NCBI RefSeq assembly: GCF_012848855.1
Contig: NZ_CP051630.1
Span: 909,501 to 973,500, forward strand
Reading direction: 5' to 3'
DNA from: Pyruvatibacter mobilis
Lineage (GTDB): Bacteria; Pseudomonadota; Alphaproteobacteria; CGMCC-115125
Length of the DNA stretch: 64,000 bases
The position numbers and the translations under genes are program-made. Positions 9,657-12,932 of this stretch are shown one piece after another (the first letter of the stretch is position 1; each line of letters starts with the position of its first letter). The notes under the pieces are model-generated. The model did not search any database. It was not told where the DNA came from and worked only from the letters and a program-made list of their open reading frames with translations.

Positions 9657-9820
9657 CCCCTCTCCCCTTGCGGCAGAGGGAGGGGCCCGCGGGCGCAAGC
9701 CCGTGGGAGGGTGAGGGGGCGGCAGCAGTGGTGTTCGATTTCTGACGACGCGGTAGGTGACAGGCCCACCCCCTCACCCGGTGCTCACGCACCGACCTCT
9801 CCCGCAAGGGGAGAGGTGAC
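9657..9820. repeat. composite GC-rich inverted-end repeat (about 165 bp)
   Basis: The left end has CCCTCTCCCCTTGCGG, then AGGGAGGGGCCCGCGGGCGC and GTGGGAGGGTGAGGGGGC. The right end has CCCCCTCACCCGGTGCTCAC and then CCTCTCCCGCAAGGGGAGAG. The ends are mirror images, and the middle has a conserved TGATTTCTGAC-like stretch in the copy at 11548-11711. Other copies lie at 32946-33106 and 33221-33380. Similar G+C-rich repeats are common in Rhizobiales and relatives; there is no coding content. Confidence 0.85.
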
Positions 9821-9856
9821 TTTCCGCGGGCGCTCGCCGCTCCTTCTCCCCGCTGT

Positions 9857-10011: not shown

Positions 10012-10779
10012 ATGAGCGACACAGACAAAAAAGTCACTGCGGCGGTCATCATGATCGGCGACGAGATCCTGTCCGGGCGGACGCAGGACAAGAACCTCAA
10101 TTTCATCGCCACCTGGCTGGGTGAGCGGGGCATCCGGGTGATGGAAGCCCGCGTGGTGCCGGACATCGAGGACGAGATCGTCGACGCGGTGAACACGCTG
10201 CGCGCCAAGTTCGACTATGTCTTCACCTCCGGCGGTATCGGCCCCACCCATGACGACATCACCGCCGATTCCATTGCCAAGGCCTTCGGTGTGCCCATCG
10301 GCCATCATCCCGAAGCCATGGCGCGGCTCACCGCCCATTACGAGGCGCAGGGGATCGAGTTCAACGAGGCCCGCCAGCGGATGGCGCGCATCCCGGATAC
10401 CGCGACGCTGATCGACAACCCGGTCTCCAAGGCGCCGGGCTTTCAGATCGGCAATGTCTTCGTGATGGCGGGCATCCCCTCGGTGATGCAGGCGATGATC
10501 ACCGGCATCGAGGACCGGCTCACGGGCGGGGCGCGCATGCTGGCCTGCTCGGTCGCCGGGCAGATCGCCGAAGGCATGGTGGCAGGCCCCCTCGGGGCGC
10601 TGCAGGAGAAGTATCCCGCCGTCTCCATGGGCAGCTATCCCTACTACAAGGACGGCACCTTCGGCGCGAATCTCGTCTTCCGCTCGACGGACCCGGCGCT
10701 TCTCGAAGCGGTGAAGCAGGAAGCTGTCGAGATGGTCCGCTCGCTGGGTGTCGAGCCTGTCATCGGCGATGGCACGTGA
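10012..10779 (+). CDS. competence/damage-inducible protein A-type molybdopterin-binding protein (CinA N-terminal domain)
   Basis: A 255-residue MoaB/Mog-fold protein with the signature IGDEILSGRTQDKN and the TSGGIGPTHDD motif. It consists only of the N-terminal CinA (COG1058) domain; the nicotinamide-mononucleotide deamidase domain of full CinA is absent, which is usual in Alphaproteobacteria. Such proteins can have ADP-ribose/FAD pyrophosphatase activity; the role here is not known. The ATG at 10012 is preferred on family alignment; a GTG six codons upstream is possible. Confidence 0.92.
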   Translation: MSDTDKKVTAAVIMIGDEILSGRTQDKNLNFIATWLGERGIRVMEARVVPDIEDEIVDAVNTLRAKFDYVFTSGGIGPTHDDITADSIAKAFGVPIGHHPEAMARLTAHYEAQGIEFNEARQRMARIPDTATLIDNPVSKAPGFQIGNVFVMAGIPSVMQAMITGIEDRLTGGARMLACSVAGQIAEGMVAGPLGALQEKYPAVSMGSYPYYKDGTFGANLVFRSTDPALLEAVKQEAVEMVRSLGVEPVIGDGT

Positions 10780-10912
10780 GCGCTAAGTGTCTGGCCGCGC
10801 TGCGTTAACGCTGATTGCGTGACAGTTTGGCAACAGACATCCCAACATTACGAAGATTTCAGGCTATCAGCCGCGGAATCCAGTAGTATGACGGTCAGGA
10901 GCGGTTATCGTT

Positions 10913-11085
10913 CCACCCCATAAAGGGTGGTGCGGTGCGCATCACGCCGGTGAGGGGAGTGGCACCCGCATGGTCCGTCAGGACCCGGGTGCCGGTTTAC
11001 CGGCGAGGGCATCTGCCGCCCATCAATGAACGACAGGCGTGCAAGCCTGTCAGTCAGGGAATTGCACCCCGGAGAATAACCGGGG
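10913..11085 (+). ncRNA. multi-hairpin structured 5' leader (candidate regulatory RNA)
   Basis: Five hairpins with fully paired arms lie in tandem just upstream of the small secreted-protein gene. They are CCACCC/GGGTGG (10913-10930), GGCACCCG/CGGGTGCC enclosing GGTCC/GGACC (10961-10993), CCGG-TTTA-CCGG (10992-11003), GACAGGC/GCCTGTC (11032-11051) and CCCCGG/CCGGGG (11067-11085). The ribosome-binding site GAGGGAG follows at about 11100. I do not recognise a known riboswitch core: no cobalamin, SAM, TPP, glycine or similar consensus is visible. The stretch 10780-10912 upstream shows no gene. It could be a riboswitch, a protein-binding leader or a separate small RNA. Confidence 0.55.
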
Positions 11086-11116
11086 CCTAGGAAACGTCAC
11101 GAGGGAGACACTCAGC

Positions 11117-11368
11117 ATGAAAAAGATTCTCGCAGGCGCATTCGGTCTTGCCGCTGGCGCGCTGATCATGACCGGTCAGGCGTTCGCTCTGGACTCCAGC
11201 TTTGAAGCCATGAGCAAGTCCGGCACCCACCAGTTCTACGTCTGGTGCACCGGTGGCGCCGACAGCCAGACCACCCAGGACGGTGCCAACATGGAAGAAG
11301 CCATGGCCGCCGTGCAGGGCACCCTTGGCGGTAACTGCAAGGCCGTCTGGCAGGGCCTCGTCAACTAA
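11117..11368 (+). CDS. small secreted two-cysteine protein, function unknown
   Basis: An 83-residue precursor with a clear Sec signal peptide: MKK followed by a hydrophobic stretch to about residue 24, with likely cleavage after AFA. The mature protein is about 59 residues with two cysteines (Cys44 and Cys74), which would form one disulfide in the periplasm, and several Trp/Tyr. The start at 11117 follows GAGGGAGAC. The gene stands alone between a strongly structured leader and a clear intrinsic terminator, which suggests tight and possibly high expression. I do not recognise a family. Confidence 0.8.
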   Translation: MKKILAGAFGLAAGALIMTGQAFALDSSFEAMSKSGTHQFYVWCTGGADSQTTQDGANMEEAMAAVQGTLGGNCKAVWQGLVN

Positions 11369-11423
11369 GACGCGCCCCAAACGCGTATCCAAGCTTCTTC
11401 GCGAACTCACCCTTCGCACGTCA

Positions 11424-11453
11424 AACGGCGGTCCCACACGGGCCGCCGTTTTT
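11424..11453 (+). terminator. intrinsic terminator of the small secreted-protein gene
   Basis: A GC-rich stem (ACGGCGGTCC paired with GGGCCGCCGT around a CACAC-type loop) followed by TTTTT, 55 bp after the stop codon. Confidence 0.85.
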
Positions 11454-11490
11454 CGTTGGCGCAGGGAAGGCCCCCGCCACCTCCCATGGC

Positions 11491-11511: not shown

Positions 11512-11547
11512 ACAGCGGATCTCGTGTGCCATACCTCTCCAAAACTT

Positions 11548-11711
11548 CCCTCTCCCCTTGCGGGAGAGGGAGGGGCCCGCGGGCGCAAGCCCGTGGGAGG
11601 GTGAGGGGGCGGCAGCAGTAGCGTTTGATTTCTGACCTGATGCCGGTAGGAAGGCCCACCCCTTTCACCCGGTGCTCGCACACCGACCTCTCCCGCAAGG
11701 GGAGAGGTGAC
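11548..11711. repeat. composite GC-rich inverted-end repeat
   Basis: Second copy of the 9657-9820 element with nearly identical ends (CCCTCTCCCCTTGCGGGAGA at the left; CTCTCCCGCAAGGGGAGAGG at the right) and the conserved GATTTCTGAC in the middle. Confidence 0.88.
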
Positions 11712-11783
11712 TTGGTGCCGCCACATTCTCCGAATCCAGCTCGGAAAGCGAATTGGCTCATATCTGCGCCCACGCACCGCTCG

Positions 11784-12845: not shown

Positions 12846-12932
12846 GCGGGCGTGGCGAAACTGGTATACGCACAAGACTTAAAATCTTGGGTCCGATAGG
12901 ACGTGCGGGTTCGATCCCCGCCGCCCGCACCA
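12846..12932 (+). tRNA. tRNA-Leu(UAA), intact, carried on the element
   Basis: Acceptor GCGGGCG pairs with CGCCCGC, discriminator A, encoded CCA. D-arm GCG/CGC; anticodon stem CAAGA/TCTTG around CTTAAAA with anticodon TAA at 12880-12882; long variable arm GTCC-GATA-GGAC; T-arm GCGGG-TTCGATC-CCCGC. It has the same anticodon as the disrupted host gene but differs throughout the D, anticodon-stem, variable and T regions, so it is not a local duplicate. It probably replaces the destroyed gene. The downstream DUF4145 start codon is only 15 nt away. Confidence 0.93.

Follow-up and report, generated by a model that had tools for sequence, protein, structure and literature searches.

The window analysed here is a stretch of 64,000 nucleotides (64 kb) from the 3.33-Mb single-contig genome of a marine alphaproteobacterium of the genus Ca. 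Phaeomarinobacter, and the whole analysis was computational. At the locus of interest, map-like and sfsA-like genes on the minus strand (both named by eye from their translations) are followed by a cinA-like gene, an intergenic leader, a gene for a small exported protein, a terminator and a thioesterase gene (Table 1). Almost every locus with sufficient upstream DNA has the cinA-like gene immediately 5' of the small-protein gene, and a search for plasmid copies returned none. The locus is old, vertically inherited and not mobile. In several relatives, a tRNA gene is found ∼100-1300 nt 3' of the small-protein gene, as tRNA-Leu is in the window, and the neighbourhood of cinA, small gene and tRNA may be ancestral.

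Table 1. Features of the cinA/small-protein locus (window coordinates, except in the last row, where positions are those of the relatives' loci)
Feature	Position	Strand	Basis and remarks
CinA-like/MoCF_biosynth protein gene	10012..10779	+	Molybdopterin-binding domain plus FLAD1_M; Pfam PF00994 E=5.5e-32, PF24102
Promoter-type element GCAACA-N7-CAACATTACGAAGATTTCAG	10830..10862	+	Invariant core CATTAC-GAA-N3-TTCA at 10846-10861
-10-like hexamer TAGTAT	10884..10889	+	21 nt after the motif; TACAAT in Parvibaculum; sequence and alignment
Structured 5' leader, ∼220 nt	10896..11116	+	z ∼-5; ∼80% identity to three congeners
P1, GGAGCG..CGCATC with TATCGTTCCACCC/GGGTGGTGCGGTG	10898..10943 (core 10906-10937)	+	Includes first-pass stem 1
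P2 compound hairpin, outer CGCCGGTGA/TTACCGGCG, inner GGCACCCG/CGGGTGCC, apical GGTCC/GGACC	10945..11005	+	Includes first-pass stems 2 and 3
P3, GACAGGC/GCCTGTC	11032..11051	+	First-pass stem 4; probability 1.0 in the window
P4, CCCCGG/CCGGGG	11067..11085	+	First-pass stem 5; probability 0.99-1.0
Shine-Dalgarno GAGGGAG	11101..11107	+	Sequence
83-residue exported protein (predicted)	11117..11368	+	Signal peptide ∼1-24; invariant Cys44 and Cys74; predicted beta-beta-alpha-beta domain
Intrinsic terminator hairpin and T-run, 3' of the small gene	11423..11454	+	12-pair stem, TTTTT at the 3' end
Downstream tRNA genes in relatives	L023:2854, L018:2876, L043:3043, L031:3525, L016:4078	all +	

Two other elements were observed around the locus. 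A dispersed ∼170-bp palindromic intergenic repeat, which recurs in the genome dozens of times, in full or in part (72-91% identity), lies on both sides of it (9658-9822 and 11540-11720). Further downstream, the segment 12562-12610 resembles the 5' half of a tRNA-Leu (gcgggcttggtggaattggtagacacaagggacttaaaa) and precedes by ∼280 nt an intact tRNA-Leu(taa) at 12846. In this region ARAGORN called the intact gene alone, and the segment is possibly a duplicated or disrupted tRNA-Leu copy, or an attachment-site remnant.

The first-pass annotation had placed a structured stretch directly upstream of an 83-codon, two-cysteine ORF coding for an exported protein with its own terminator, and the structured stretch, the ORF and the terminator were borne out. 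The ORF directly follows the structured stretch and its product has a signal-peptide-like N-terminus (MKKILAGAFGLAAGALIMTGQAFA), and the terminator is recognizable as a hairpin and T-run. This hairpin alone (11421-11455) folds at -21.6 kcal/mol; it was absent from the list of a consensus terminator/promoter scanner. Proteins of this family, 80-100 residues long, carry a signal peptide, share two cysteines that never vary and have the core HQFYVWCTG...C(W)PVWQG (23-sequence alignment A1). In a sample of 385 genomes spread evenly across the class, 23 have the protein; in the Parvibaculum family it was found in 32 of 40 genomes, and in the window's genus in all four genomes compared. Sequence searches of Pfam, NCBIfam, PHROGs and PDB found no relative of it. 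AlphaFold2 gave block-mean pLDDT values >90 for residues 31 to 80 and a confident beta-beta-alpha-beta domain (36-81), in which Cys44 ends strand 1 and Cys74 starts strand 3. This modelled placement would suit a disulfide, and we infer that the protein is exported and carries one. Fold searches with the model gave best Z scores of 4-5, and Foldseek found no match at E <= 0.001. PurS, PaaB and YkzG, small beta-alpha-beta domains of the PDB, share the ∼50-residue beta-beta-alpha-beta layout; however, at such Z scores no function can be inferred from the likeness, nor is a weak or missing fold match evidence of a new fold.

The region between cinA and the leader looks like a promoter. Phaeomarinobacter, Parvibaculum and allied genera have a common motif, GCAACA-N7/8-CAACATTACGAA-N3-TTCAG, with constant spacing to the -10 box that follows. 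When up to 2 mismatches were allowed, the motif was found at the small-gene locus in 6/6 genomes searched, and a single second site, a weak one, occurred in one of these genomes (G012). A scan for a sigma-70 site found none and there is no consensus -35. Because a good -35 is lacking, an activator is likely, and the promoter of the small gene is likely to be activator-dependent. Given the position of the -10-like hexamer, the RNA start is predicted at ∼10896, so that the leader probably begins before position 10913, where the first-pass annotation had it start. A short ORF in the leader was considered and rejected: the congeners have a frame that begins with an ATG at the -10 box, but a 2-nt indel breaks it in the window, where a stop follows after 11 codons. 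Upstream short-ORF frames also differ between Parvibaculum subgroups. In another group of loci (L029-L034), the upstream regions contain another conserved motif (GAAATCTG(G/C)TG(G/A)AT.., CTTTCGAGAGACTCATGCG), which is perhaps a different promoter of the same small-protein gene.

The leader of the window is strongly structured. Over 241 nt, it folds at -113 kcal/mol against -89.8 +/- 4.7 for shuffled sequences (z = -4.96), none of the 200 shuffles being as good, and a second folding run on 225 nt of the leader gave z = -5.3. A z <= -5 was also reached by 7 of 214 other 225-nt stretches of the window (∼3%), so the leader is unusual, not unique; at least two other strongly folding stretches (9600 and 11400) overlap the dispersed palindromic repeat. 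An origin of the leader itself from a repeat element was rejected, since the leader is single-copy in the genome. The five perfect stems described previously are real as a hairpin leader, but they amount to four stem units (P1-P4), as stems 2 (10961-10968/10986-10993) and 3 (GCCGGT/ACCGGC, 10991-10996/10999-11004) overlap within the compound hairpin P2. The two are mutually exclusive because both use 10991-10993, and the loop of stem 3 would be 2 nt. Its predicted probability is 0.0 in the folded leader and 0.05-0.19 with the whole coding region. P2 alone folds at -41.5 kcal/mol. Its outer stem (10945-10951 with 10999-11005) has a probability of 0.98-0.99 in the ensemble of the leader alone, and this value falls to 0.2-0.5 when the whole coding region is folded in.

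We compared the window with three other Ca. Phaeomarinobacter genomes (the loci L010 and L013 are duplicates of one congener genome). The leader has ∼80% identity to the three congeners at aligned positions, with ∼45 gapped columns, whereas the 4-fold synonymous sites of cinA and of the small gene have 54-58% identity in the same genomes; the gapped alignment favours the leader value somewhat. Shuffled leaders never matched the real local alignment score within the genus. When the window structure was projected on the genus alignment, 82.8% of the cells were paired against 38-46% with one arm slid, a control that is generous because one row of this alignment was itself the source of the structure. 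Double changes are few in this alignment (two pairs). In P1, 17/17 pairs are kept and 100% of the cells are paired in the four congeners, with one double, compensatory change and two one-sided changes. Segment-wise folding of the four sequences gave the same P1, long P2 and P4 and a different P3. The outer stem of P2 is retained in the congeners while its inner part is rebuilt from other sequence, P4 becomes CCTCCG/CGGGGG at the same position, and two other hairpins occupy the site of P3. When given the genus alignment, RNAalifold favoured a long-range 5'/3' pairing, which we rejected as several of its pairs are broken in the window. Taken as alignments, these data indicate that selection keeps the leader within the genus. 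The conservation of the stems in homologous loci thus holds for P1, the outer part of P2 and P4 within the genus, but not for P3, which is rebuilt, and the exact stems are lost outside the genus.

Beyond the genus, the leader sequence cannot be aligned; the best local alignments to the window score no higher than the edge of what shuffled sequences give. This includes the leaders of Parvibaculaceae (∼140-220 nt), which have structures of their own: a P3-like stem with double changes in 3/6 pairs, a GGGU..ACCC hairpin that abuts the Shine-Dalgarno sequence, and common GGGU..ACCC-GGAGGGAG and GGGGGA-run elements. For P3 and P4 jointly, the Parvibaculaceae covariation score was reached by 0/500 shuffles. 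A covariance model built on the 3' half of the Parvibaculaceae leaders found the leader in 6/6 Parvibaculaceae genomes searched, and its few other matches were weak (E 0.014 or worse). The same model scored 8.4 bits (E = 7.3) on the window and had no match in the window's genome. However, most whole Parvibaculum leaders fold no better than shuffles (z ∼0.3 to -1.3). RNAalifold on the raw MAFFT alignment of the Parvibaculum leaders gave a poor consensus (-11.9 kcal/mol), and single helices were tested instead for this reason. A 5-bp stem of family f4 shows double changes in 4/5 pairs (three genomes), and genus g10 has three RNAalifold-consensus pairs with double changes. The f4 leaders (L048, L049 and L050) also contain a near-invariant block, TGGTAAGAAT..TGGGGA(C/T)GA(A/T)ACC, unlike that of the window, in front of the same gene. 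Some distant members (L045-L047 and L028) have short gaps with little structure. Covarying stems are therefore found within lineages, with no core common to the families; on these alignments, what the families have in common is a leader with some kept hairpins and not one RNA structure.

In Rfam 15 at the gathering cut-off, no family matched the leader, and in the window a tRNA alone was found. Up to E 10, the best sub-threshold matches of the leader reached 11-15 bits against cut-offs of 41-82, and the loci of eight relatives gave tRNAs only. The first-pass remark that no known riboswitch is recognizable agrees with this search, and no paper in the collection searched links Parvibaculum with riboswitches. 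Like the riboswitches and protein-responsive leaders of Rfam 15, the leader of the window is a conserved structured 5' leader before one gene. It differs from them in having no match at the gathering score, no expression platform found and no inter-family core, with a single target gene: the element occurs at one gene only. An attenuator was searched for, and no hairpin followed by a T-run exists within 10780-11116. The Shine-Dalgarno sequence of the window has a predicted unpaired fraction of 0.36 against 0.37 behind shuffled leaders; in most of 30 leaders, whose lineages are not independent, its predicted openness is at or above that with shuffled leaders. As regards an RNA thermometer, its predicted unpaired fraction is 0.39, 0.36 and 0.35 at 20, 30 and 37 C, and the predicted accessibility is flat over 20-37 C in nearly all relatives. 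According to these folding models, the ribosome site of the window is not sequestered.

Since no attenuator, thermal switch or Shine-Dalgarno sequestration was found, a stabilizing and insulating 5' UTR fits best. We tentatively favour, at a confidence somewhat below the even mark, a dedicated structured 5' UTR that acts mainly as an mRNA stabilizer and insulator in the manner of ompA, on a single-gene mRNA with its own conserved promoter. The small exported protein would be made from a single-gene mRNA whose conserved promoter is probably activator-dependent. The row of stable stems near the 5' end (P1-P4) would slow RNase attack, and the stems would insulate the downstream Shine-Dalgarno sequence from pairing. 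The outcome would be a long-lived, freely translated mRNA, and selection would keep the hairpins mainly for these effects. In PMC7509114, 5' stem-loops are described as known mRNA stabilizers for ompA, Acinetobacter recA and vacA, and the E. coli ompA 5' UTR is stated to work by mRNA protection (citing Emory et al. 1992). The window leader resembles the ompA 5' UTR in being long, with hairpins near the predicted RNA start and well 5' of an unsequestered Shine-Dalgarno sequence, and in having an exported-protein target. It differs in its 220 nt and four stem units and in serving a small exported protein instead of a porin, and the likeness is one of anatomy. By this analogy, a stabilizing role of the leader seems plausible. 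Moreover, a sequence that is free to change while hairpins persist is as expected for a mechanical and not a ligand-binding role. Several observations speak against it. As most whole Parvibaculum leaders are no more stable than shuffles, strong structure is not required everywhere; one arm of P1, 18 nt long, is invariant, which a purely mechanical stem would not call for; and shuffled leaders leave the window Shine-Dalgarno sequence just as open. In its codon usage the gene shows no sign of special abundance of the protein, and this weakens the abundance argument for a stabilizer: 18% of background genes score as high as the small-protein gene, and two of three congeners score low.

The invariance of P1 bears directly on the most serious alternative. 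P1 and its flanks are near-invariant in the genus, unpaired bases included (CAGGAGCGGTTATCGTTC, GCGCATC and CCGGTGAGG), and for this reason a sensing role deserves weight: binding of a metabolite, metal, sRNA or protein to P1 and these flanks, perhaps as part of an autoregulatory loop, could set translation or stability. The single-copy leader is specific to the small-protein gene, and the elements common to the Parvibaculaceae leaders would also suit a sensor. However, neither the window nor the eight relatives' loci matched an Rfam family, the Parvibaculaceae model does not extend to the window, and Shine-Dalgarno sequestration, a thermal effect, an attenuator and a second target gene were all lacking. 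We therefore regard sensing as unlikely, although well worth keeping in view. The first-pass proposal of a self-contained regulatory unit stands as far as its parts are concerned: a promoter-like region, a leader conserved in the genus and free of Rfam matches, a gene and a terminator, at a conserved position after cinA. Nothing in these data shows sensing or switching; a regulatory switch is unproven, and a structural leader is the likelier reading. A bolder version, to which we give little credence, is that the locus carries an undescribed, fast-evolving class of cis-regulatory leader at one ancient site (cinA, then the two-cysteine exported protein), sensing something connected with the protein; its architecture would be re-invented in each family, with hairpins and an open ribosome site being kept.

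Another possibility is that cinA and the small gene are merely separated by a G+C-rich spacer whose stems are a by-product and matter little, the promoter and Shine-Dalgarno sequence being the conserved parts. The unremarkable stability of most Parvibaculum leaders, the equally structured 3% of the window and the short spacer in some families would all agree with this. It appears improbable to us, as the leader is better conserved than synonymous sites in the genus and is not a copy of the dispersed repeat, P1 retains all its pairs with one double change, and compensatory changes occur in two other families. Finally, release or separate use of the leader as a trans-acting, 5'-UTR-derived sRNA, which its length, stability and one well-conserved 5' block might suggest, is very improbable, given that no terminator lies within it and that its sequence conservation ends at the genus.

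Should the structured leader do no more than stabilize mRNA, it is an unremarkable, though well-conserved, 5' UTR stabilizer; should it prove to be a sensor, it would count as a new regulatory RNA. An uncharacterized protein family has long been kept beside cinA in several alphaproteobacterial families, joined to its own promoter motif and to selected structured leaders. This offers two entry points into its biology, namely the activator of a single-target promoter and the reason why the leader must stay structured.
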